This document shows positions 2,942 to 44,167 of a stretch of 49,503 nt of DNA, piece by piece. The DNA is taken from positions 1 to 49,503 of IMG/VR virus record IMGVR_UViG_3300027968_000004. The stretch is one strand, 5' to 3'. Under the pieces are notes generated by a model. It worked only from the letters and a program-made list of their open reading frames with translations. It searched no databases and was not told where the DNA came from. Made by a program: the position numbers and the translations under genes. The stretch is from a virus. The first letter of the stretch is position 1; each line of letters opens with the position of its first letter.

Positions 2942-5842
2942 TTACTCTTGCGCTAGCAAAGCTCCCCAGATGGAAAGCGTTAACAATTCATTTCTGGCTG
3001 CTTCAGCCGGAAAAGATAATTTAATTTGCAGGTGTCGACAAACAACAGCGTCGTTGCCTTGCAGCAAATAAAAACGATTGCTCATTATAGATTGACTTGG
3101 TGTCAATACTGGGGGGTCTGCAACATAATTATTAAGGGTTTCAAAATTACCATTTATCTCATCGAGAAGTACGCTGACAGTCGGAATGCTTCCAACCTGC
3201 TGCAATTCAGCTGTGATAGACGATATCTCTGCAAGTTGACCGGGCTGTGCCAAAACAACGCTTCCAACTGTCATGTAGGCCGAATAAGTGTTACCCAAAT
3301 CTGTAAAAGTGGTCATTGATCTGGCGGCAATTTGTCCATTGCTCATGCCTAACAATAGTTGGTGCTGCCCGGGCGATGTCTCAACGGATTGCATTGCAGT
3401 AAATCCGGCTGAAATAGTCGCTTTAGGACTCCACGCCGGACCGCCTTCAGGAGGCTGATTCCAATTGCAGCGAAACCAATTCTGAACTCCGTCCGCAATA
3501 TAAACAGCCTTTTCACTAGTTCCTGCAATAATTGCTGCCACATAAACTTTTGTAGGATCAAAGCTAGATTCTAATAAGTTACCGATAACAAAACCTGCTT
3601 CGTTAATTCCTGCACTGGACCATTGAATAAATTGACGATCAGCAGTATACAGAAAAATATTTGATCCTTGAATATCCAAAGCATTGTAAGAAAGCAGTCC
3701 CAGGCCAGGTGTATACGGCATAACGTAAAAGGTTGGAATGTTGGTACCAACAATTATATAAAGATCGCTTTGAGTAAAGACCAGTAATCCGTTGGCCGTG
3801 GGAACCAAGCGATTAACTTGTGTTGGAAAAACAAAATAATTGGCTGGAGGAAACGCTTCCGCGCCGTTGCCTAAGAGCGTGTCGGGTCCTCCTGAAAAAT
3901 ACACAATGTTTCCTACAACACCCCAAACCCGGCCAGCATGATAAGCGAATTTAGTTAGTCCGCTCGGAGGGGGATCATTTGCATGAGCAAGGGGTGCCTG
4001 CTGTGTAATATTCAGAGAAGTATCGTTTGCACTATCTGTGATAACCTGGCTCGTATTCGGATATGGCGAAGTAGGAAGATTGAAAAAAGTGGAGCCGCCG
4101 TCTGTTGTACGAAAAACCCAAATTTGATTGACCTGTGGATCGGTGCTCGCTGTTAAAGTAACATTGACTCCAGCCGAATTATTAAACGGGCCTGTTCCCG
4201 CGCTTGGTGGAGTTGCTGTACTTACGTGCCCACTGTTACTGTTACCATAAGCTACCACATATTGATAGCCGGACGTGGCACTAAAAGAACCGGAATTCGA
4301 GCTAACAGATACTGGGGGTCCGCCCGTGGCCCAGATCGTAACTTTAACTACATCAATGTACCAAGTAGCGACGGAATTGCTTGCTGTATTAAGCCCTTGA
4401 ATTCTTACACCGAAATTACTTGTACTTAAAGATGTAGCACTCCAATTTGCGCCCCAAAAATCGCCCTGTCCCCCTAAAGTGACATAACCATTGGAGCTCG
4501 GCAGTTGAATACCAATTCTTGTATTCCCTACTGGCACGCCTCCTTGAAGTAACTGTACATTAAGATAAGAACCGTTTGGGTTTGATGGTTGATAACCCTT
4601 AATTTGAACCTGAATACCTTGAATTGTAGTTTGTGTGGATAGGTTAAAATTAAAGCCGGTTGCTTGCAGGTAGTCAGTTTGATTGGCAGCGGGTACCTGG
4701 TAATAAACTGTTAACGTAAAACCGTTTACTGCCGCCGATGCTCCATTGCCGGGCGCTCCCGTACAATCACAGGAGAAGGACAAACCAAAAGCCGAAGAAT
4801 TTACTACGGCAGGGGTCAGGCTCGTACCGAGCCCCCAAAGATCGTTTGAACCACCATACGTTTGTGCGGTCAAAGTAGAGGGCCACGGCGAAGCATTATA
4901 TCTGTTTGCTGAGCCATTTACACCAACAAGCTGCACGACAGAATCATAAACCGCGCTGGTTCCGCCAGTCTGTTCACGGCTAACTGATGCCGCGACTCCT
5001 AATATTATCGCGTTGGCAGGAATGCTAAAACCAAAATTTGTAACAACGATGGAGGTCGAACTACCGCCCGCCGGCAAAGAAGTTGTAGCCGTGCTGGTTG
5101 TTCCTTCGACTGCCGTGACGTTGCCCCAAGAAGAGCCGCCGCCAATTTGTGTAGCTGATTTTGGTGCGTTTGGGCCAGTAGATGTTGAAGCAATGGAGCC
5201 TGCATTAGCAGAAGCATAAGTACCGTCTTCAGCTGTTATATTCCCGGGGCTAGACCATGCGGCGCCTCCTGTAACTGGAACATCGCTACCAGAAGAACAA
5301 ATATTTGGACCGGAAGCTCCAGAAAAATCACCAATAGAAATGCCCCATTTCCGAGTTGATCCTCCGTCAGTCCAAGCAACAAGATCGACGCCATCGCCCA
5401 TATAAAGGGTGTTGCCGACTCCTTGAAAGAAGCACTTCCCGGCGCCGTTTGCTTTATTTAAAATTACTGTGGCGGCTGTTGGGGTTACATTATAAACGGC
5501 ACTTGCAGTATCGACGATAACATCTATTGGGTTTGGAACATTTTTAATTTGTCGAAAAGAATAAAACCCTAAAATAGGTGTGGCTACCGTAGCCGTCGAA
5601 AAAAGGATCAATCCCGGTCGGCGGATCATGGTGCCATAATTAGTGAGCTCCATGTTTAGCCCATCGATCAACATATCCGTGCGGGAGCCCAAGAACCTTG
5701 CTTCGTATCGGCTAGTAGGCCCATTAAACGGACTGCGCTGTGTCCGCAAACCGGAAAAGAAAGTTTGCGTTGTGATGGGATAATAGTGCGTGGGCTTCTT
5801 GGGAGGAGCACCAACAACTTGTAGAATTCCAAGATCAGGCAT
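2942..5842 (-). CDS. Tail nozzle / stabilisation-like structural protein
   Basis: 966 residues. The N-terminus resembles podoviral nozzle or tail tubular B proteins: an N-terminal GLNMELTNYGTMIRRPG segment followed by a beta-propeller-like series (YNVT, LYMGDG, VYFSGGPD, LYIIVGTN, QFIQWSS). The middle (~180-560) is Ser/Thr/Gly-rich beta sandwich sequence that may be inserted decoration domains. The C-terminal 350 residues carry the propeller-like repeats. It lies between the adaptor pair and the fibre, matching the T7 order gp11-gp12-fibre. No Shine-Dalgarno is visible before ATG 5842 (upstream GTAAAAACAACGATTT), so coupling to the gene 12 bp upstream is likely. Assignment rests on N-terminal pattern, size and order. 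Confidence 0.6.
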   Translation of the reverse strand: MPDLGILQVVGAPPKKPTHYYPITTQTFFSGLRTQRSPFNGPTSRYEARFLGSRTDMLIDGLNMELTNYGTMIRRPGLILFSTATVATPILGFYSFRQIKNVPNPIDVIVDTASAVYNVTPTAATVILNKANGAGKCFFQGVGNTLYMGDGVDLVAWTDGGSTRKWGISIGDFSGASGPNICSSGSDVPVTGGAAWSSPGNITAEDGTYASANAGSIASTSTGPNAPKSATQIGGGSSWGNVTAVEGTTSTATTSLPAGGSSTSIVVTNFGFSIPANAIILGVAASVSREQTGGTSAVYDSVVQLVGVNGSANRYNASPWPSTLTAQTYGGSNDLWGLGTSLTPAVVNSSAFGLSFSCDCTGAPGNGASAAVNGFTLTVYYQVPAANQTDYLQATGFNFNLSTQTTIQGIQVQIKGYQPSNPNGSYLNVQLLQGGVPVGNTRIGIQLPSSNGYVTLGGQGDFWGANWSATSLSTSNFGVRIQGLNTASNSVATWYIDVVKVTIWATGGPPVSVSSNSGSFSATSGYQYVVAYGNSNSGHVSTATPPSAGTGPFNNSAGVNVTLTASTDPQVNQIWVFRTTDGGSTFFNLPTSPYPNTSQVITDSANDTSLNITQQAPLAHANDPPPSGLTKFAYHAGRVWGVVGNIVYFSGGPDTLLGNGAEAFPPANYFVFPTQVNRLVPTANGLLVFTQSDLYIIVGTNIPTFYVMPYTPGLGLLSYNALDIQGSNIFLYTADRQFIQWSSAGINEAGFVIGNLLESSFDPTKVYVAAIIAGTSEKAVYIADGVQNWFRCNWNQPPEGGPAWSPKATISAGFTAMQSVETSPGQHQLLLGMSNGQIAARSMTTFTDLGNTYSAYMTVGSVVLAQPGQLAEISSITAELQQVGSIPTVSVLLDEINGNFETLNNYVADPPVLTPSQSIMSNRFYLLQGNDAVVCRHLQIKLSFPAEAARNELLTLSIWGALLAQE

Positions 5843-6900: not shown

Positions 6901-7629
6901 TTATTTCTGATTAATTATTCCGGCAGGATTAATGGGGCCGCCGACAGAGCGAAGTTGTCGTTGAGTGATAATTTGCCGCTCAAGGAAAATATTCTTTTCA
7001 TCTTCTGTTAATCCTTCAGAAACCGCAATGAGCTGACGGAAGAATAAATCAATAGCAAAAGCAAATTTTTCATCTCCTCTTTGTTCATAAGCCTTGGCCA
7101 GAAAACCCTGATTATAAATTGAATTCATATAATCTGGGATTGGTGCCCAAGTATCTGTCACTTGAGAAAAAACCGGAGGCGCATTTTGATAAACTAAATT
7201 GAGCGTATAAGTGGTATCGGGATTGGGAAACACACGGAAAGTGATGTTGCCGTTGCCATCGTCATTTTGAACGGCTATGTAAACAGGCTCATTTTGTGTC
7301 GAATCTAAAGTAAGCGTCCCGCGAATTTCCAATTCTTTATTAAACCCGGTACTGGTATTGTTAATCGTAGCTGTTTCTAGCCAGCCAAACGTAGGGAGCG
7401 CTATACTATAATCCTGCGCGGTACTATTGATTGATGTGGAAGCAGTAGAACGATTCCATCTCCAAGCAAAGGGTGGCGACAAAATCGCCTGCCTTACCCA
7501 GTCACCGATACTTAATGCCGGCTCATTGGGATAAGAACTATTTGCTCCAACGCCAGTTAATGGGCGAAGCTGATTGAAGGCTTGGGCAAAAGCAATGGAA
7601 CGTGCGAGTTGAATAGTTGAATTAGACAT
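6901..7629 (-). CDS. Head-tail adaptor, T7 gp11-like (short paralogue)
   Basis: 242 residues. It contains NEPALSIGDWVRQAILSPPFAWRWNR (quoted in parts: NEPALSIGDW, AWRWNR) and WAPIPDYMNSIYNQGFLAK, followed by a helical segment ending in a basic tail. This is the layout of T7-like tail tubular protein A adaptors, at about the usual length. It is the first gene after a terminator-like hairpin, and the T-rich run TTTTTTATTTTT sits directly before its ATG in place of a ribosome-binding site. The paired copy downstream suggests duplication and specialisation. Confidence 0.6.
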   Translation of the reverse strand: MSNSTIQLARSIAFAQAFNQLRPLTGVGANSSYPNEPALSIGDWVRQAILSPPFAWRWNRSTASTSINSTAQDYSIALPTFGWLETATINNTSTGFNKELEIRGTLTLDSTQNEPVYIAVQNDDGNGNITFRVFPNPDTTYTLNLVYQNAPPVFSQVTDTWAPIPDYMNSIYNQGFLAKAYEQRGDEKFAFAIDLFFRQLIAVSEGLTEDEKNIFLERQIITQRQLRSVGGPINPAGIINQK

Positions 7630-25590: not shown

Positions 25591-25655
25591 AAGACAAATT
25601 AAGGCAAGTCAAGACAAACCAAGACAAATTAAGACAAATTAAGACAAATTAAGAC
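25591..25655. repeat. Ten-bp tandem repeat (AAGACAAATT)
   Basis: Six full units plus a partial one; four units are exact and two diverged. They lie in the 260-bp gap after the Panacea gene and reach into its stop codon. The rest of the gap (25386-25590) is AT-rich with a small GGCCTC/GAGGCC hairpin at 25560-25574 and no gene. Confidence 0.85.
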
Positions 25656-26236
25656 TTGCTGCCAAAGAAAGAATCGAAGGCCGCTATTTCGGCAAGCTCG
25701 GCATCGATTGCCGAAATCTCTTCTGAAGACTTGCCTCCGGCTATTAAAATATTCCTATAATCCATGTTTGAAGACGAATAAGGCAGGGCAAAGCATTCGG
25801 GGAGTTTCCGCGAAAAAGCAACTAATTCTTCCTGGCTCTTGTCTCCGTGCTCGTAAACAATTTTCTGAATTAATTGCTCTTCGGCCATAGAAAGCTCCCC
25901 CCGGCCCGGGAGCCCAATCAGCCACACCGCGTCTTCGTTGGAAAGAATAAATTTCTTCCAAAACACTCCAAGTACTTCTTTTTCAAGTACTTCTTTTTCA
26001 GGTGCTTCTTTTTCATCGGAGCACAGGTTCAATAAAGCAGAAATGTGCCTTACGGCAGGCCCGCTGCTGGTCAGGATATAGCTATCCGTCGTAATGGGGC
26101 GGCCCCATCGTAAAAGGGCTTCTCGATCTATCAGATAGAGCAGCTTAACCAGCTTCTGGGGGCGGGTATCCTCGCCCAGAAGTCGGAGTACGGCGCTAGC
26201 GGTTTGGGTTGCTTTAATCTCGTTAAATCTTAACAT
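25649..26236 (-). CDS. Panacea-domain (SocA/GepA-like) protein
   Basis: 195 residues from ATG 26236 (GGAG 9 bp upstream); a frame from 26266 would overlap the previous gene. The core reads KLVKLLYLIDREALLRWGRPITTDSY followed by SSGPAVRHI, the Panacea (formerly DUF4065) signature. Such proteins neutralise diverse toxins or act as proteolysis adaptors. No toxin is obvious beside it: the only partner is the 58-residue zinc-ribbon protein upstream. It is the second gene of the late operon. It may act as an anti-toxin against host abortive infection or stabilise the prophage. Confidence 0.8.
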   Translation of the reverse strand: MLRFNEIKATQTASAVLRLLGEDTRPQKLVKLLYLIDREALLRWGRPITTDSYILTSSGPAVRHISALLNLCSDEKEAPEKEVLEKEVLGVFWKKFILSNEDAVWLIGLPGRGELSMAEEQLIQKIVYEHGDKSQEELVAFSRKLPECFALPYSSSNMDYRNILIAGGKSSEEISAIDAELAEIAAFDSFFGSKS

Positions 26237-26243
26237 GTGTTGT

Positions 26244-26420
26244 TCACTCCAATGATTTTTTACCACAATGATGGCAGACGGTTTTATCGGCTGTACAACC
26301 CACCCACTTCTTGCAGGTTGAGCACCACTTGCGGACCGACGGTGGTTTAGTCGAAGGCAACTCTGACCCCAGGGCAGCGCCGGGATTTTGATTTCGTTTC
26401 TTAGGCTTTGATGATCGCAT
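26244..26420 (-). CDS. Zinc-ribbon small protein
   Basis: 58 residues from ATG 26420 (GAGGGG upstream). The basic, Pro-rich N-terminus (RSSKPKKRNQNP) is followed by CSTCKKWVGC and CHHCGKK, one Cys4-type zinc ribbon. It is the first gene of the long minus-strand operon and ends 7 bp before the Panacea start. It could be a DNA-binding regulator or the partner or toxin of the Panacea protein. Confidence 0.6.
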   Translation of the reverse strand: MRSSKPKKRNQNPGAALGSELPSTKPPSVRKWCSTCKKWVGCTADKTVCHHCGKKSLE

Positions 26421-26811: not shown

Positions 26812-26836
26812 GTAAAATTTACCGTGTAAAATTTAC
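26812..26836. promoter_or_regulatory. Paired GTAAAATTTAC palindromes
   Basis: Two copies of the 11-bp palindrome at 26812-26822 and 26826-26836, start-to-start spacing 14 bp. The second is extended to TGTAAAATTTACA. Further copies are at 28378-28388 (just before the second RNA-like region) and 40517-40527 (inside a gene). Likely a repeated protein-binding site. Confidence 0.6.
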
Positions 26837-26960: not shown

Positions 26961-27160
26961 GACGTACCGGCGCCTCGCCCTACTGACGCACCGGCGCACC
27001 GGAGCATCGGCACGTCGGCACGTCGGCACGTCGGCACGTCGGCGCATCGGCACGTCGGCACGTCGGCACGCCAACGCAGCAACACATCGACGCACCGGCG
27101 CACCGGCGCATCGGAGCACCGGAGCACCGGAGCACCGGAGCACCGGAGCATCGACATACC
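26961..27160. repeat. Array of 25 eight-bp repeats
   Basis: Unbroken 8-bp periodicity. The commonest units are GGCACGTC (runs of four and two) and GGAGCACC (run of four), with related GGCGCAYC and GACGCACC units. Because 8 is not a multiple of 3, long open frames on both strands here are by-products of the repeat. A replication-origin iteron array is a plausible use. Confidence 0.85.
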
Positions 27161-27202: not shown

Positions 27203-27299
27203 AGTGGAACTGTTTTTCCACTTCCCCCTTTTTTTCGCGCACGCGCGCGATTAAAAAAAGAACGCGCGAAAAATTTTTATTTCGCGTGTTTTCAATCAC

Positions 27300-27795
27300 T
27301 TACGCGCCGAGCGCAACACAATTTGGCGACCAAAGGGACTTTTTGGCACGCATACTGCAACAGGTGTTTGCGTCATTCGGAGGTTGGTGAGTTTCCCAGC
27401 CGGGTGACAAGGATGGTCGAAGCCAAAATCCGCCGAGAGACAACGGGTTCGGAGAATAGGCAGCAACTCCGCAAGGCCATGCGGGGTTTTCGACGTGTCC
27501 CCGCCCATAGGGGGCGAAGGTGGGCTCGGAGCGCGGAGACTGAAAGCCAATAGGCAACTAACCGCGCGGGGACTGGTGGAGCCTGTTACTGACCGGAACA
27601 AGCTGCTAATATGACGCCAAGCTTGAAGTTGCATGGCGTAAGGCAGAAGGGAAGGCAGGTGCAAACAGGCGACGATATCAGGGCAGGGCCACAAGATAAC
27701 TCCCCTTTTTTCTGCTCCTTTGCTGTCCTCCTGCTCCAGCGCCGCACTTTCATGTGCGGTGTTGAATCTAGGGGACAGCATCCCCACTTTATGGA
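27300..27795 (+). ncRNA. Candidate large structured RNA 1
   Basis: About 500 bp with no credible coding frame but many helices. Examples are a long-range 7-bp GCCTGTT/AACAGGC (from 27581 and 27664) enclosing CTGC/GCAG and ACGCCA/TGGCGT. Also present are GCGCGG/CCGCGC (from ~27530) enclosing GCC-AATA-GGC, CCGCA/TGCGG near 27469, CGCCC/GGGCG near 27502, and a terminal domain TGCTGTCC/GGACAGCA (~27720-27780) enclosing AGC-GCCGCAC/GTGCGGU-GUU. The last helix ends just before the Shine-Dalgarno of the next gene. It resembles large phage ncRNAs in scale (GOLLD, ROOL, HEARO-like), but I cannot match it to any. Confidence 0.5.
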
Positions 27796-27803
27796 GATTA
27801 GAA

Positions 27804-28094
27804 ATGACGAACAATCAACCTTCAAACATTATGGCGCAGCTTCAGGCTGCGATGCAAAGAATCAAAGAGCTTGAAGCACAAGTTGCTCGCCGGTCAACGA
27901 TCACGTTCAAGGTCAGTGATAAGGGCGCGGTGAGCGCATACGGGCTTGGCAGATATCCGGTGACACTCTATGCCGAGCAATGGGAGCGCTTGCTCGGCAA
28001 AGCGGACGAGTTGCGGGCGTTCATTGAAGCGCACCGTAGTGAACTAAAAACTAAGGCTCAGGCACAAGCCGAAGCCGAAGCAAAGGCACAGTAG
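27804..28094 (+). CDS. Small early protein (VSDKGAVSAYGLGRYPVTLY type)
   Basis: 96 residues from ATG 27804 (GGAG 9 bp upstream). An N-terminal helix (IMAQLQAAMQRIKELEAQV) is followed by a conserved-looking block FKVSDKGAVSAYGLGRYPVTLYAEQWERLLG and a helix. It ends in an Ala/Glu/Gln repeat tail (AQAQAEAEAKAQ). The block occurs in uncharacterised proteins of phages and other mobile elements. Its place between two structured non-coding regions suggests an RNA- or DNA-binding job, as inference only. Confidence 0.75.
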   Translation: MTNNQPSNIMAQLQAAMQRIKELEAQVARRSTITFKVSDKGAVSAYGLGRYPVTLYAEQWERLLGKADELRAFIEAHRSELKTKAQAQAEAEAKAQ

Positions 28095-28285
28095 CTCCGT
28101 TCGGCATCAGCGGGGCGCCCGCTGATGTCCGCCTCGTGGTACGGGGCGGGCATGAGGGGGCGCCTTTATGCCCTTCTTGTGCGGGGCGCAGCAGTGTGTC
28201 CCGCCAAGACGAATAATCAATCTCCCGCGCCCGTGCGGTTTCTTGGAGCCGTGCGGACGCGGCAGTGTCTCCATTTGCTAGACTT

Positions 28286-28330
28286 GCGCTGCGTTGCATT
28301 GCGCTGCGTTGCATTGCGCTGCGTTGCATT
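28286..28330. repeat. Three perfect 15-bp tandem repeats
   Basis: GCGCTGCGTTGCATT repeated three times without change, at the 5' side of the second structured region. Confidence 0.9.
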
Positions 28331-28357
28331 GCGCGGCGCTAGTCTGCAGGAGCACTG

Positions 28358-28374
28358 CGTCCGGAAACCGGACG
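28358..28374. other. CGTCCGG-AAA-CCGGACG hairpin
   Basis: A perfect 7-bp stem with an AAA loop, just before the structured region. It is a member of the recurring GTCCG/CGGAC hairpin family of the early arm. Confidence 0.6.
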
Positions 28375-28393
28375 TTGGTAAAATTTACATAGT

Positions 28394-28880
28394 GCCCTGT
28401 GTTTCGAGGATACCCTGCCAACTACCTCGCCTTTTGACCCACCTCGAAACCCTCCCCCCAACGAAAGTTGGGGTATCCTCAAAGCGCAGGGCGTTGCCGA
28501 GCGTTGCTGTGGGCCTTGCTGGGCCTTCTAGGGCTTACTAGCAAGGCTTGACTTGCGGGGCGTGTGCAAATATACTTACCGCGCCTCATGCCGGACGCTC
28601 ATCAGGCGTTTGCTTGCTGAGTGTCCAGCTTGGGACACGGTTCCACACTCCTACCGGTCTCGACGTGGGAGCCGCAGCAATCGCGGTAAGTCTTTGATTG
28701 CGCGGCGCTTAGACCACGCCTGCCGCTGTGGGCGGCGGGAGATTCGGAGCGACAAGCCTCCGGTAGGGTGCAAACAGGCGTGCGCCCAAGCTTGGGGAGT
28801 CCGAGGCTTGCCGTCGCCAAAGCCCGCAGATAGCGAATGTCCTCTCCTAGCCGATCCTAGCCAATAGCATCGGCTAGCAA
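28394..28880 (+). ncRNA. Candidate large structured RNA 2
   Basis: About 490 bp without a gene but dense in long helices. (a) A 20-bp stem with two single-base offsets, 28394-28414 with 28472-28492, holding a CCCAAC-GAAA-GTTGGG hairpin. (b) GCCTTGCT/AGCAAGGC, 28513/28540. (c) A 9-bp long-range stem CTTACCGCG/CGCGGTAAG (28575/28682) enclosing GGACGCTCA/TGAGTGTCC and GTGTCC/GGACAC. (d) CAAGCCTC/GAGGCTTG (28753/28803). (e) CTAGCCGAT/ATCGGCTAG (28847/28869). A GTAAAATTTAC site precedes it at 28378. Plus-strand transcription is assumed from flanking genes. No tRNA, tmRNA or RNase P signature is seen. Confidence 0.6.
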
Positions 28881-28961
28881 GACACGTTAGAAGCGCGACA
28901 TCCGGCGCGGGATACCTGCGGGAAAACCGCCTTGGGGCCTCGGACTAACCCTAATTTGCTC

Positions 28962-28998
28962 GGCGTCCGTCCATCCATCCGTCCATTTTGCGGACGCC
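28962..28998. other. GGCGTCCG/CGGACGCC hairpin before first small early genes
   Basis: A perfect 8-bp stem (28962-28969 with 28991-28998), 17 bp before ATG 29016. The loop contains repeated TCCATCC and an alternative inner GTCC/GGAC pairing. Same family as the other GTCCG hairpins. Confidence 0.5.
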
Positions 28999-29015
28999 CT
29001 GTGCGGAGGCAAAAA

Positions 29016-29240
29016 ATGCACACAGTAGAGTCTTTTGGGTGCGATTGTTTTGGCAATTGCACCGGCTGGCAAGTGATACGGGGCAGGCAGGTGCTCGCCC
29101 AATTCGTGGCGAGCGTCTATGAGCCTCAAGCACGCGAGGACGCTCGCCGCGCGGCGTTTGCCCTTGCTGCACGCCTTAACGCAGCAGAGGATTCCGCTCG
29201 TCGAGCAAAGGACGTGATTCAGCACGTCCTTGCAGACTAA
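29016..29240 (+). CDS. Small early protein
   Basis: 74 residues from ATG 29016 (GGAGG 6 bp upstream). The N-terminus has three Cys (FGCDCFGNC) followed by TGWQVIRGRQVLAQF, then a long Ala/Arg-rich helix (ARRAAFALAARLNAAEDSARRAK). It may bind metal or nucleic acid. It begins a run of closely spaced early genes and lies 14 bp before the Csx16-like gene. Confidence 0.7.
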   Translation: MHTVESFGCDCFGNCTGWQVIRGRQVLAQFVASVYEPQAREDARRAAFALAARLNAAEDSARRAKDVIQHVLAD

Positions 29241-29254
29241 TACGGAGGAAAAAA

Positions 29255-29623
29255 ATGGAAAAAATCGTGGTAACAAGGCACGCCGCTCTCGTAGAATTCC
29301 TACGAGAGATTGGCCTAATCTCAGAGGATACGCCAATTATCTCGCACGCCAGAGTGGAGGACGTGCGAGGCAAGCATGTCATTGGTGTGCTGCCCTTGGC
29401 GCTGGCCGTTGAAGCACGGACAGTAACAGAAGTGCCCTTGCATATCCCGCAGGAATTGCGGGGCAAAGAATTAAGCCTCGACGAGGTGCGCATGTATGCC
29501 GGAGCACCGGTACGGTATACCGTATACCGCACCGAAGAACTCTTGGACGTTGTAGCGTCCGAGAGTGCCTATCTAACTGGCGCCTCAATTGCGCACATGG
29601 ATGAAGAGCTAGAGCAATTTTAA
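29255..29623 (+). CDS. Csx16-like (VVA1548 family) protein, possible anti-CRISPR ring nuclease
   Basis: 122 residues. The pattern VTRHAALVEFLREIGLI...VRGKHVIGVLPLALAVEA...VPLHIPQELRGKELSLDEV follows the Csx16/VVA1548 family: a TRH near the N-terminus, a GxxVIGxLP strand-turn and a P.ELRGKEL block. Csx16 is found beside type III CRISPR systems and is linked to breakdown of cyclic oligoadenylate signals. No CRISPR array or cas gene is in the window, so a phage copy could blunt type III immunity. Recognised from memory of the family pattern, not by search. Strong GGAGG site. Confidence 0.6.
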   Translation: MEKIVVTRHAALVEFLREIGLISEDTPIISHARVEDVRGKHVIGVLPLALAVEARTVTEVPLHIPQELRGKELSLDEVRMYAGAPVRYTVYRTEELLDVVASESAYLTGASIAHMDEELEQF

Positions 29624-29640
29624 ACCCGTCGGAGGAAGCC

Positions 29641-29964
29641 ATGAAAATGAAAAAGAGAACGTATATGCGGGAGTTGAAGAAATTTAAAACTCCCGATGGT
29701 CGAAAGGCTTTGAATTTTATGCTGCGGGTGCGGCTCGCCCGCTTCGTGGCGGATAATTTCTCATTCGACGAGGCGGAACGCCTCGTTAAGTACTTGGATG
29801 AGAATAAAATAGCACATTGTCTCCATCACGTAGACACACACTACTGTGGTACGTGCTACCACAGCGAAGATATATATGAATTAAGCCTGCCGACAGGTAA
29901 GCTGTTTATTCACTATGACAACTCCGGCAGCACGCCGGAGTTTCGATTCACGCCAGCAAGCTAG
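29641..29964 (+). CDS. Small early protein with His/Cys cluster
   Basis: 107 residues. A basic N-terminus and helix (ALNFMLRVRLARFVADNFSFDEAERLVKYLDENK) are followed by HCLHHVDTHYCGTCYH, a potential metal site, and an acidic strand-rich end. GGAGG lies 6 bp upstream. Family unknown. The early anti-defence-like neighbourhood suggests a host-interaction role. Confidence 0.7.
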   Translation: MKMKKRTYMRELKKFKTPDGRKALNFMLRVRLARFVADNFSFDEAERLVKYLDENKIAHCLHHVDTHYCGTCYHSEDIYELSLPTGKLFIHYDNSGSTPEFRFTPAS

Positions 29965-29972
29965 GAGGAACA

Positions 29973-30188
29973 ATGAAGAGAGCATATGAGTTATACGATG
30001 AAAAAACAAGACGGGCGACCCCCGTCATAGACTTAACAGACGAGGAAGCCAGGAGGCTCAATGAAGCCCTTCTTGCCACAGGCTCGTCGAAGTACTTAAT
30101 TGCCAAAGAAGACCGAAAAGGGTTTTACTCTGGCCTCACGCGTTCCGAACTGGATCGCACGGGAACGTGTGAAACGGATTGGTACTAA
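29973..30188 (+). CDS. Small early protein
   Basis: 71 residues (RAYELYDEKTRRATPVIDLTDEEARRLNEALLATGSSKYLIAKEDRKGF), with a strand, a helix and a short end rich in Thr and Asp. AGGAGG lies 6 bp upstream. It ends just before a hairpin-rich gap. No family recognised. Confidence 0.65.
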   Translation: MKRAYELYDEKTRRATPVIDLTDEEARRLNEALLATGSSKYLIAKEDRKGFYSGLTRSELDRTGTCETDWY

Positions 30189-30380
30189 AACGGGGCGTCC
30201 GGCTAAAGCGGGGCGTCCGGTTTGCGGACGGATGCCCTGCACATTCCCGTGTTGGGAAAAGAAATTCCCATTTTGGGCTGCGGATGACGGCGGCACACGA
30301 GTTTTCAACAACTTACGTGCTGAAGTCCCTTTGGCCCACGAATTGCAATACAAAACAGCAAATTCGCATATGGAGGTCAC
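30189..30380. other. Hairpin-rich intercistronic gap
   Basis: Contains two copies of GGGGCGTCCGG, a perfect CGTCCG-GTTTG-CGGACG stem (30214-30230), and a segment ~30243-30278 (TTCCCGTGTTGGGAA...TTCCCA) related to the one at 27174-27207. I see no gene in it. It may hold a promoter or processing site for the next cluster. Confidence 0.5.
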
Positions 30381-30557
30381 ATGAATCGAACAATCCTTGC
30401 CGTCTTTCTCGCTGATTTTCATAGCGGGGCAGGCTCGCGCGGCTACCGCCTGCTCTGCCGCCTTAACCCGCCAAAGTTTAGTGCGGGTACAATTGAAAGA
30501 ATTCGGCGTACCGAACTGTACGCCTATCTTGCAGAGACCTACGCCCTGTCGGTATAA
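30381..30557 (+). CDS. Very small early protein
   Basis: 58 residues from ATG 30381 with GGAGG 5 bp upstream. It begins MNRTILAVFLADFHSGAGSR and ends AYLAETYALSV, with a basic middle (YRLLCRLNPP; IERIRRTELY). Its stop lies 10 bp before the next start and overlaps the next Shine-Dalgarno region. The site and spacing support a real gene. Function unknown. Confidence 0.65.
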   Translation: MNRTILAVFLADFHSGAGSRGYRLLCRLNPPKFSAGTIERIRRTELYAYLAETYALSV

Positions 30558-30567
30558 AGGAGGCAAC

Positions 30568-30885
30568 ATGTATCTTGCACAAAAAGTAAATCCTCGCCGT
30601 CTTGGATACTCGCCCAAGATGACAGCAATCATGGGCGCAATTATTGCCCATGATTATGGAGCGCGCGACCCCTACGGACGAAAGCTTGTCGCGCTCTCTA
30701 TCACGTCAGACGGGTTCGTGCTGGGTCATACTGATGACCCAGACGCTACGCTGTTTCTTGGCGATGCAGATGAGTTGCATCACAACATTCAACGCGTATT
30801 GCGCGACGCCAAGCTCGATAAAGTTGAGCTTGAGGCGTTTTGGCGCCTTTACGATAGCAGGGTTAGGGATTGGCGCGCGTTGTAA
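30568..30885 (+). CDS. Small early protein
   Basis: 105 residues from ATG 30568 (AAAGGAGG 6 bp upstream). Strand-rich middle (LVALSITSDGFVLGHTDD, ATLFLGDADELHHNIQRVL) and a C-terminal helix with Trp (LEAFWRLYDSRVRDW). Looks like a compact alpha/beta fold. No family recognised. Confidence 0.7.
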   Translation: MYLAQKVNPRRLGYSPKMTAIMGAIIAHDYGARDPYGRKLVALSITSDGFVLGHTDDPDATLFLGDADELHHNIQRVLRDAKLDKVELEAFWRLYDSRVRDWRAL

Positions 30886-30905
30886 GTAAGCGCGCCTATC
30901 CGCGC

Positions 30906-30920
30906 GTCCGGTTTTCGGAC
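30906..30920. other. GTCCG-GTTTT-CGGAC hairpin
   Basis: A perfect 5-bp stem in the gap before the zinc-finger gene at 30943. A member of the recurring family (others at 30214, 33346, 34687, 36558). Confidence 0.6.
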
Positions 30921-30942
30921 AAACTAAGACTGGAGGAAAACG

Positions 30943-31608
30943 ATGTGGAGTTTACCAGATATTAAACGCATGAATGAAGATGCAAAAGCGTTTGAAGCCA
31001 CGCTCAAGCGCATTGTTGTCACCGGTAAAGATAACGCAGGCAAAAAATTGCGCTGCGAGCATCACTCACGGAGTTGCGAAGGAGCGGTGCGAGCCATTGA
31101 ATATTACGATATTTTCAGTGACACCCCAAAGGGGTATATTCCATTGTGCGAAAAACACAATGGATATTATGGGACGCCAGACGAGGGCTACTTCACTTGC
31201 GATGCTTGCGGTCGGGTTTTCATAGAAAACTACACGTGGGAGGCTTACTTTCGCGTGGGTGAGGGCGAGATTCTTTGCTTGAACTGCTACCGCGAGCAAG
31301 AACTTGCCAAACCCGAAAACTGGATTGAGCTTACTGCTGAAAACATCGCAAAAGTAGACTTCGAGCAAATACGCAAAGCAAAACACTTGCTTGCAAGTGG
31401 ACAGGCCGTCCCCAACGGCCTGAAATTTATTGACAATGCGGAGTTTGATTCAATGTCTGGCCAGCAAATTAGCGGCCCAACGATAAAAGAAATTCTTACT
31501 GCCGCCCGCGATGCGGGTTACAAGCGGGCAATCCTAATTTTGGATGCAGCTTATCAGTTTGCCGTGTCCATCGGAGTTTATGTTGAAAACGGAGGGCACA
31601 ATGAATAA
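30943..31608 (+). CDS. Zinc-binding early protein
   Basis: 221 residues. The N-terminal part has CEHHSRSC and LCEKHNGYYG (a His/Cys site), followed by a clear ribbon CDACGRVF...CLNCYREQ at ~86-119. The C-terminal third looks like a helical fold (GPTIKEILTAARDAGYKRAILILDAAYQF). Probable nucleic-acid or host-factor binding. The next gene starts inside its last codons. Family not recognised. Confidence 0.7.
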   Translation: MWSLPDIKRMNEDAKAFEATLKRIVVTGKDNAGKKLRCEHHSRSCEGAVRAIEYYDIFSDTPKGYIPLCEKHNGYYGTPDEGYFTCDACGRVFIENYTWEAYFRVGEGEILCLNCYREQELAKPENWIELTAENIAKVDFEQIRKAKHLLASGQAVPNGLKFIDNAEFDSMSGQQISGPTIKEILTAARDAGYKRAILILDAAYQFAVSIGVYVENGGHNE

Positions 31609-40087: not shown

Positions 40088-40741
40088 ATGGAGCACAACA
40101 CAACAAATCCACAATTTGAATTTTACCCTCCACAAAAACATTGTATAATCGAGGGAGGGCACATTCTTTTTGTTGAGACAGAATACGATCCTGATTCCCC
40201 AAATCCTTTGGAAGAGGATGAAGGATTGGGGCAAATCCGCTCTTTCAATCCTCGGCACATAAATTACATTAACCTTAAAAAAATCAACACCGTTGTCACT
40301 GAAAATCTTGATGCCGTCCAGCTGTCATACTATGAGCACGACCGCTGCCTTTGGTTTGTTGCCGGAACACGCACCCCACCCGGAGTTGAATTCCAATGGG
40401 ACGGCGTACGGTTCGCCGGCATCTGGTTTCCAACCGAGGCCACAATTCAAGAATACGAGGCTTCTCAAACGGATAAAACACGGCAGCAATGGATGATCGA
40501 AAGAGCAAAAGAAGCATGTAAAATTTACACAGCTTGGTTAAATGGTGAAGTATATGCATATTCTGTACACCTTTTTCCGATAAAGAAAACGGAACGAGGA
40601 CAGCTATATGACAGACGCGAAGATTATAGATTCGACCAGCCGCTCTTCGAGGAATACGCTGGAGATTTTATTGATTTTGATCAATTTGAAGCAGAGGTTA
40701 ACGCGGCAATAAACCGCGCATTGTCTAAAATTAAACCATAA
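40088..40741 (+). CDS. Unknown early protein
   Basis: 217 residues, acidic and aromatic (NPQFEFYPPQKHCIIEGGHILFVETEYDPDSPNP; DYRFDQPLFEEYAGDFIDFDQFE). The middle has a helical segment (MIERAKEACKIYTAWLNGEVYAYSV). A GTAAAATTTAC palindrome at 40517 lies inside the coding sequence. AAAGGAG upstream. No family recognised. Confidence 0.65.
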   Translation: MEHNTTNPQFEFYPPQKHCIIEGGHILFVETEYDPDSPNPLEEDEGLGQIRSFNPRHINYINLKKINTVVTENLDAVQLSYYEHDRCLWFVAGTRTPPGVEFQWDGVRFAGIWFPTEATIQEYEASQTDKTRQQWMIERAKEACKIYTAWLNGEVYAYSVHLFPIKKTERGQLYDRREDYRFDQPLFEEYAGDFIDFDQFEAEVNAAINRALSKIKP

Positions 40742-42445: not shown

Positions 42446-42573
42446 CCCACAACGGCAACTCAATTACTGGCGCCCATGCAGTTAAAAAAGAAAGCGCCGT
42501 ACAAGACTGGAACGTCACCTCTTATCTCATTAGGTACTTGACAACACACGAAGCGCGATGCTACTGTCCTTGA
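42430..42573 (+). CDS. Possible very small protein
   Basis: 47 residues from ATG 42430 (AAGGA 8 bp upstream), overlapping the integrase end. No recognisable features apart from a Cys-x-Cys near the end (ARCYCP). The promoter candidate lies inside its last codons, so it may be non-coding. Confidence 0.3.
   Translation: MGREITHNGNSITGAHAVKKESAVQDWNVTSYLIRYLTTHEARCYCP
42538..42567 (+). promoter_or_regulatory. Sigma70-like promoter candidate
   Basis: TTGACA (42538-42543), 18-bp spacer, TACTGT (42562-42567). A perfect -35 with an acceptable -10, placed 38 bp before the ATPase gene. It would drive the replication cluster independently of the integrase. Confidence 0.5.
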
Positions 42574-42604: not shown

Positions 42605-44167
42605 ATGAGCCTAAGCTACGATGTTTCCAATACACCAAACGCCGGGCGTCTTATAGAATCTCTCCGTTACCTCGGCTACGGCAACTATGAGGCCTTGGCC
42701 GACATTATCGATAACTCCATTGATGCCGGAGCGCACCACATCAGCATCCGCATTGCTTCCCGTCAAGGCGAAATAGAAATTACGATTGCAGACGATGGTT
42801 GCGGCATGGATCGAGAAACCCTAGACCAAGCCATGCGCCTGGGTTCGCTGACCGAGCGCTCCATCGAGGCCGATCTAGGCAAGTTCGGAATGGGATTAGT
42901 AACCGCCAGTCTCTCAATGGCGCGCCACTGCCACGTAATCACCCGCAGCGCCCGGGGTGAGCTTTGGTCGAGCGCTTGGGACGTGGATCATATTGTACGA
43001 ACCAACACTTTTTCTAAGCACCTGGATCGTGCAACAACTGCTGAGCGCAAACTCTTCCGCGAGTTACTGCCCAAAGCGAAAAGCGGCACGATCATCCGGC
43101 TCACAAAAGTAGACAACCTCAGCAATCGAAATACAACAGTATTCGCTGCAACCTTGTCTGAACACCTGGGCCGGGTACACCGTTATTTCATTAAAGAGGG
43201 AGTTCAAATCAACATCAATGACAAGCCCGTCAACGTCATCGACCCCCTCCAGTTAGACGACAAGGGCACGCAAATTGTTGTGGACGATACTATTTCCTTT
43301 CGTCTAGACGGGCAAGAACACCCCATCCGAATCCGAGTAGTCCTTCTCCCCGACGAACCTCTGCACGCTTTGGACGTGGCTAAGTCTATGAAAGCCCAGG
43401 GCTTTTATGTGCTACGAAATAAACGGGAAATCGCCAATGCCGTAACCCTTGGCTTCTTCACAAAACACCCCGACTTTAACCGAATGCGCGGCGAGATATT
43501 CTTTACCGGGGCGCTGGATCGCCAGATGGGGATTGAATTTACCAAACGCCAAGTCAATCTGAGTGAAGAGCTATCTGAAGAGCTGGGCAAGATTTTAATT
43601 CCGACCTGCCGTACCATAAAGCGGGGGGAATCGACACGAAGAATCGAGGCCGATACTGCCGCTAAGGAACAACATACTCGCGCGGCCAAAGCCATAGCCG
43701 AAAAATCCAAAGTGCTGCTGCGCCCGCAGCCGGCCCCGCCGACAGAGGCCGAAGAAAGAGAAAAAGAAAGACAAAGAGAAAAAAGCGGCGCCGGAAGTGA
43801 AGCACAACCCGCAGCAAAAAGTCAAAAAGCGACCCTTCGGGAACGAGAGGCGGCCATAGCCGGTGCGGAAAAACAGCAAACCACCATAGAGTTCCGGGAA
43901 GAACATCTAGGCCCCACGGGGCAGCTCTATGAAGCGGACCTGCAGGGAAGAAAAGTTGTTGTCCGCTATAACATTGAACATCCCGCCTATGCTCGGCTGG
44001 TGTCTGAAAATCTTGATTCACCCCGGCTGGTGAGTGCCATTGATTTCTTGCTTTATTCAATGGCCGCTGCCGAGTTACGGGTGGGGGCGGAGTCAGAAAC
44101 CGCCAATGAAACGTTGGCGAATTTCAAAGGAGTAATGTCCGCCAACCTACGGACATTACTTAGTTAA
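42605..44167 (+). CDS. MORC/Hsp90-type GHKL ATPase
   Basis: 520 residues. The ATP-binding Bergerat fold is complete: ADIIDNSIDAG with Asn37 (N box), IADDGCGM with Asp63 (G1 box), and LGKFGMGL at 91-98 (G2 box and ATP lid). A transducer-like domain follows with GTIIRLTKVD and a conserved-type basic FTKRQ. Residues ~345-440 are charged coiled coil or linker (EEREKERQREKS). The C-terminal ~80 residues form a separate domain (RKVVVRYNIEHPAYARL). Prokaryotic relatives occur with restriction-like and chromatin-like systems. In a phage it may act in DNA packaging, replication or counter-defence. Confidence 0.8.
   Translation: MSLSYDVSNTPNAGRLIESLRYLGYGNYEALADIIDNSIDAGAHHISIRIASRQGEIEITIADDGCGMDRETLDQAMRLGSLTERSIEADLGKFGMGLVTASLSMARHCHVITRSARGELWSSAWDVDHIVRTNTFSKHLDRATTAERKLFRELLPKAKSGTIIRLTKVDNLSNRNTTVFAATLSEHLGRVHRYFIKEGVQININDKPVNVIDPLQLDDKGTQIVVDDTISFRLDGQEHPIRIRVVLLPDEPLHALDVAKSMKAQGFYVLRNKREIANAVTLGFFTKHPDFNRMRGEIFFTGALDRQMGIEFTKRQVNLSEELSEELGKILIPTCRTIKRGESTRRIEADTAAKEQHTRAAKAIAEKSKVLLRPQPAPPTEAEEREKERQREKSGAGSEAQPAAKSQKATLREREAAIAGAEKQQTTIEFREEHLGPTGQLYEADLQGRKVVVRYNIEHPAYARLVSENLDSPRLVSAIDFLLYSMAAAELRVGAESETANETLANFKGVMSANLRTLLS

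Follow-up and report, generated by a model that had tools for sequence, protein, structure and literature searches.

A gene-free, helix-rich segment ahead of the early rightward genes of a phage as a candidate structured RNA

Genomic context

The window analysed here, the whole 49,503-nt stretch of the IMG/VR virus record IMGVR_UViG_3300027968_000004, has two divergent arms: genes of the left arm, which extends to about 26.3 kb, are read leftward, and those of the right arm, beginning at position 27804, are read rightward. Within the right arm a gap between two + strand genes (28095-29015) is gene-free throughout, and its downstream part holds the segment considered here, a proposed non-coding structured RNA of about 553 nt (28394-28946, + strand) delimited by its predicted fold. 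The gene upstream of the gap (27804-28094, + strand) encodes a 96-aa protein whose family (..PVTLYAEQW..) has members in many phage and bacterial genomes; of the loci kept for comparison, 80 lie in viral contigs and 80 in bacterial genomes, the latter including many Acidobacteria, Bdellovibrionales and Proteobacteria.

The first downstream gene (29016-29240, + strand) has a good Shine-Dalgarno sequence and encodes a 74-aa protein that found no match in a PHROG search. The second (29255-29623, + strand) encodes Csx16 (PF09652; E 3.4e-17, 62.9 bits against a cut-off of 25). Csx16 is an experimentally confirmed family of cA4-specific ring nucleases (PMC12409355), so that the product of the phage gene may act against type III CRISPR. 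A published survey of 28,114 phage genomes found Csx16 in just two of them (PMC12409355), and a tblastn search of the phage collection with the Csx16 of this phage gave no match.

Elsewhere the same phage encodes a Panacea/SocA-like protein (25649-26266) and a GHKL-type ATPase protein (42605-44167); a TTGACA-type promoter precedes the ATPase gene near 42530. A near-identical contig, which stops at 28423, carries about 16.8 kb unmatched in the 49,503-nt stretch and then joins base 1 of that stretch, which is thus a fragment. The best named relative of the phage terminase is that of Acidobacteriota phage Tunturi_3 (29%), and querying 396 genomes from a single bacterial phylum with the terminase gave no hit. 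Locus L007 has tRNA-like genes, identified by eye, densely arrayed over 3500-5300, upstream of the gene for a terminase that shares 40% identity with that of the phage.

Repeats, palindromes and promoter-like sequences

The upstream half of the gap (28095-28393) consists of long hairpins in a row, with z -9.1 on the + strand and -7.5 on the - strand, and is structured at least as strongly as 28394-28880; the + strand is favoured there by 3.6 SD. It contains 15-bp iterons of the sequence TTGCGCTGCGTTGCA (28284-28338). In a sister strain with one copy fewer, the predicted upstream fold loses only part of a hairpin tip and is otherwise intact, and this loss is the only natural variation seen near 28394-28946. 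Between two otherwise near-identical strains the copy number of tandem repeats differs both at 26985-27160 (8-bp units; 32 bases) and at 28284-28338 (15 bases). The region preceding the 27804 gene (27291-27803) is also non-coding and moderately structured (z -2.5); it shares the 14-mer GGTGCAAACAGGCG with 28767-28780 and TTTGCG..TTCGGAGG with position 7406 of locus L017.

The palindrome CGTCCGGAAACCGGACG (28358-28374) is one of the CGTCCG-N5-CGGACG sites, which occur at 28358, 28980, 30214, 30905, 34687, 36557 and 42370 (seven matches with at most one mismatch, against 0.06 expected). Among the copies the stem is kept and the loop varies, and several lie at gene junctions of the right arm, about 20-25 bases upstream of a start codon. 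The motif is a candidate operator, stoperator-like site or mRNA hairpin. The palindromes at 28358 and 28980 flank 28394-28946 on both sides, and a CGTCCG...CGGACG hairpin (28964-28998, + strand) stands directly ahead of gene 29016. Five bases upstream of 28394 lies the operator-like GTAAAATTTAC (28378-28388), other copies of which are found at 26812 and 26826 (within 26812-26836) and at 40518; those at 28378 and 26812-26836 might be shared operators of two early promoters.

No convincing promoter was found immediately upstream of 28394, and the 3' end of the segment lacks a U-tract terminator. A sigma-70-like promoter sequence, TTGACT-17-TATACT (28548-28576, + strand), agrees with the consensus at 10 of 12 positions, a match that alone is not functional evidence, and lies within Domain II of the fold described below.

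Helix content, folding energy and coding potential

The first-pass annotation described at least eight long helices in 28394-28880, and the count bears this out: nine perfect Watson-Crick helices, each 8 bp or longer and spanning at most 180 nt, are present, compared with 1.26 ± 1.17 (maximum 4) when the sequence is dinucleotide-shuffled 100 times. Direct repeats (3 against 1.1 in shuffles) and mirror repeats (2 against 0.9) are not enriched, so the helix excess is not a matter of low complexity. Among 500-nt intervals of the 49.5-kb record the top helix excess is that of 28501-29000 (9 against 1.0 expected). Relative to shuffles, the folding energy of 28380-28900 has z -5.1 on the + strand and -3.8 on the - strand, and that of 28394-28946 on the + strand has z -4.65 and -5.16 with two shuffle sets (MFE -265.2). 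The difference in MFE favours the + strand of the segment by 1.9 SD, a modest preference; the cases available for assigning the strand by counting G-U against A-C mismatches were too few. Not all of the perfect helices fit into one nested fold, several being in competition or crossing one another. Forced-helix folding puts the energy cost of six perfect helices that lie outside the predicted fold, and compete with it, at 5-12 kcal/mol.

The segment was also annotated as free of coding sequence, and this stands. Open reading frames in the 28394-28880 region score -0.05 to -0.18 per codon, compared with -0.04 to +0.16 for the genes, and none reaches the Pfam cut-off; hidden genes were rejected on both grounds.

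Edges and predicted domains

The helices reported for 28394-28880 are real, but the limits of the structured stretch need revision, both because 28095-28393 is structured too and because the 3' edge is better placed at about 28946. Bases placed with P>0.9 amount to 48% for 28394-28880 and 76% for 28394-28946, against 35-37% in shuffles; the fold becomes well defined once the 3' arm of the helix 28799-28808/28936-28945 is included. Alternative 3' ends from 28946 to 28989 are still good, and those at 28924 and 29015 are poor. Since 28946 was picked partly after folding, the 3' edge was left free in the real and the shuffled sequences alike. With this floating edge the mean entropy comes down to 0.34 bits at best, compared with 0.67 ± 0.18 in shuffles (lowest of 24 shuffles 0.37), and the entropy averaged over edges is 0.61, against 0.96 ± 0.16 (lowest 0.61), a result that is supportive, if not overwhelming, of a well-defined fold. 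Unselected 300-nt intervals within 28394-28946 are often poorly defined. On the - strand the fold of 28394-28946 is less well defined than on the + strand, and some nearby - strand intervals are as well defined as those of the + strand.

The fold comprises three predicted domains, all on the + strand. Domain I (28394-28492) is a 22-bp stem (28394-28415/28471-28492) of 19 Watson-Crick pairs, 2 G-U pairs and 1 mismatch; its competitor, a 9-bp helix (28401-28409/28442-28450), costs 8.7 kcal/mol when forced. Domain II (28497-28795) is multibranched and closed by CCGAGC/GCTTGG (28497-28502/28790-28795), with helices at 28511-28549, 28557-28587, 28593-28626, 28630-28663, 28664-28718, 28719-28739, 28745-28762 and 28766-28787, most of which have P>0.9 when folded within 28394-28946. 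Folded alone, this domain has z -7.5 with 87% of bases placed, a figure to be discounted because the fold itself served to choose the limits of the domain; 300-nt intervals starting near it are not well defined. Domain III (28799-28945) is closed by the 10-bp helix 28799-28808/28936-28945, whose 3' arm lies beyond the originally noted 28880, and holds a 9-bp hairpin (28847-28855/28869-28877).

Search for relatives

No homologue of the segment was found in the phage, plasmid, viral and bacterial collections searched by DNA, protein-neighbour, pattern and covariance-model methods. In the phage and plasmid collections blastn gave just short weak matches, and a DNA pattern search with the helix pairs gave none. 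By way of neighbouring genes, Csx16 led to one contig of different context (L002) and to none among the genome contigs, the 30943 gene recovered a locus (L024) with a non-matching upstream region, and the 29641 gene recovered none. None of the 160 loci of the 27804 family has a similar flank, and the idea that strong structure is a general trait beside genes of this family was not borne out across loci. Very large imperfect hairpins (z -4.4 to -9.6) occupy intergenic gaps of other phages (L017, 4950-5560; L018, 6300-6850; L020, 5200-5820); the first impression that they represent a shared trait did not hold up.

Rfam covariance models gave no match to the segment at the gathering score, whether to a self-splicing intron or to another class, and those that appeared at E<=5, to microRNA and ALIL families, were of chance level; in 15 of the 27804-family loci they identified three tRNAs only. 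ARAGORN detected zero tRNAs within the 49,503-nt stretch, itself a fragment. A covariance model of 28593-28740, effectively a single-sequence model, recovered only itself, a weak overlapping antisense match and one chance-level match, and retrieved nothing from 13 virus records or from 396 genomes of one bacterial phylum. Empty searches in collections without near relatives are weak evidence of rarity, and with no homologue found the structured RNA remains a prediction from one sequence.

Comparison with known phage RNAs

The first-pass annotation proposed a large ornate RNA of the GOLLD or ROOL kind, or a new one. A large structured RNA is still the better of the available readings, given the long-range branched fold, the lack of an ORF, the preference for the + strand and an early context that looks transcribed; membership of the GOLLD or ROOL families is unsupported, as the Rfam scan produced no match worth naming at the gathering score or at E<=5 and there is no tRNA. 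GOLLD RNAs are large, elaborate, non-coding and phage-borne, with function unknown; many exceed 800 nt, they are often near tRNA islands, and their 3' region is universally conserved (PMC12286853). The segment is likewise non-coding and phage-borne, with a large and elaborate predicted fold. It differs in having no Rfam match and no tRNA in the stretch, tRNA proximity being usual for GOLLD but not universal. Increased expression during lysis is a further feature of GOLLD. ROOL is a large branched RNA of phages and prophages with a complex, covariation-supported fold containing pseudoknots, to which the branched predicted fold of the segment and its several possible crossing helices may be compared; however, these helices are costly as competing nested folds (5-12 kcal/mol), and the segment has neither an Rfam match nor a tRNA island. 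The put sites of phage HK022, which are processive antitermination RNAs, comprise two hairpins and are well under 100 nt. The proposed RNA of the segment would resemble them in being structured and in standing at the head of an early transcript, and it is far larger.

Interpretation

The excess of complementary helices, the low folding energy, the absence of a coding signal and the gene layout are direct observations. With moderate confidence, 28394-28946 is read here as a structured untranslated RNA that would head the early rightward transcript, either as a free-acting molecule or as a leader. This reading is favoured by the enrichment of complementary helices but not of direct or mirror repeats, with the largest helix excess of the record and z scores of about -5, by a + strand fold that is well defined and has a natural 3' edge at 28946, by the MFE difference in favour of the + strand and by the lack of a coding signal. 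Also in its favour are the two flanking genes, both on the + strand, the leader-sized gap, the lack of a U-tract terminator and the presence of GTAAAATTTAC just upstream, as well as the bracketing of the segment by CGTCCG-N5-CGGACG palindromes and the loss of an iteron that leaves the predicted upstream fold intact. It is weakened by the empty homologue searches, by the hairpin-rich coding genes at 29016-29623, by the modest strand preference and the equally well-defined - strand intervals nearby, by the failure to find a convincing promoter directly upstream and by edges chosen after folding.

We infer the transcription, strand, start site and function of the segment as follows. It would be transcribed from the + strand as the first part of the rightward early transcript. 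That transcript probably starts close to the operator-like site at 28378, or else arises by read-through from gene 27804, and would continue into the small early genes from 29016 on, Csx16 included. The RNA would fold as three consecutive closed domains and act as RNA, a stable trans-acting molecule being slightly likelier than a cis-acting leader; in the cis version, the leader would tune transcription or decay of the early operon. As a new phage RNA the segment is credible but unproven.

The main rival is an element acting at the DNA level, a replication origin or control region in which the inverted repeats are protein sites or extruded hairpins. Iteron-type replication origins combine repeats and palindromes, and the gap between the arms is alike in this respect, with its 15-bp iterons at 28284-28338 and operator-like palindromes; the 8-bp repeats at about 26985-27160 vary in copy number between strains, as the iterons do, and both strands of the segment fold well. 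The gap between the divergent arms also lies near the minimum of the cumulative GC skew (26-27 kb), although skew tracks gene direction too. However, the iterons and operators lie outside the segment, 28394-28880 itself being without iterons, its helices for the most part form a long-range, branched structure instead of iterated sites, and the + strand is favoured. We consider a DNA-level element unlikely.

It is similarly doubtful that the structure is only a cis-acting leader transcribed from the promoter-like sequence at 28548-28576, an explanation that overlaps the cis version of the preferred one and differs in the start site. In that case 28584-29015 would be a 5' untranslated leader functioning in antitermination, attenuation or stability. 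The near-consensus hexamers and their 17-nt spacing agree with this, as do the folding of 28584-28946 alone (z -6.1, 76% of bases placed) and the hairpins ahead of ribosome-binding sites at other places in the early operon. On the other hand, consensus promoter matches arise by chance, this one is inside Domain II, so that Domain I and the closing helix would be left untranscribed, and 28584-29015 is less well defined.

The early region as a whole also bears on the contrast, drawn in the first-pass annotation, between the segment and an otherwise tightly packed genome. The gap is indeed gene-free, but the contrast is weaker than claimed because the coding genes just downstream are unusually hairpin-rich. 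Ten perfect hairpins of 8-10 bp, against 0.37 expected, occur in coding 29016-31608 (one, at 29286, is CTCTCGTAG-AATTC-CTACGAGAG), and the genes at 29016-29623 have z -5.7 on the + strand and -7.5 on the - strand, with no significant + preference. These hairpins and z scores suggest that something makes the entire early region hairpin-rich. The segment could accordingly be a functionless by-product of mutation, such as template switching that perfects quasi-palindromes, in keeping with the low folding energies across 29-31 kb. We regard this as distinctly improbable, since the hairpins of the coding genes are short and local, whereas the helices of 28394-28880 are long-range, with zero perfect hairpins having loops of 12 nt or less. 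Finally, a diverged GOLLD, ROOL or other known large RNA missed by the models would suit the size, phage setting and branched fold but is very improbable, given no Rfam match at the gathering score, chance matches at E<=5 and no tRNA.

If the segment is a structured RNA as preferred here, it could, more speculatively, belong to a new class of large phage RNA with several domains, expressed early, acting in trans and encoded in the same early operon as Csx16, a proposal to which we give little weight. Such an RNA could help to counter RNA-sensing defence of the host, perhaps through binding to a host protein, or self-assemble like GOLLD and ROOL; the link between the segment and Csx16 is one of position only. 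Only a handful of large RNAs have been described from phages, and what they do is an open question. Should the fold be a DNA-level feature or a by-product, the region would still illustrate, in compact form, a phage control region rich in hairpins. If the RNA reading is true, a new large RNA in an early operon with a candidate anti-type-III-CRISPR enzyme would provide a tractable case.
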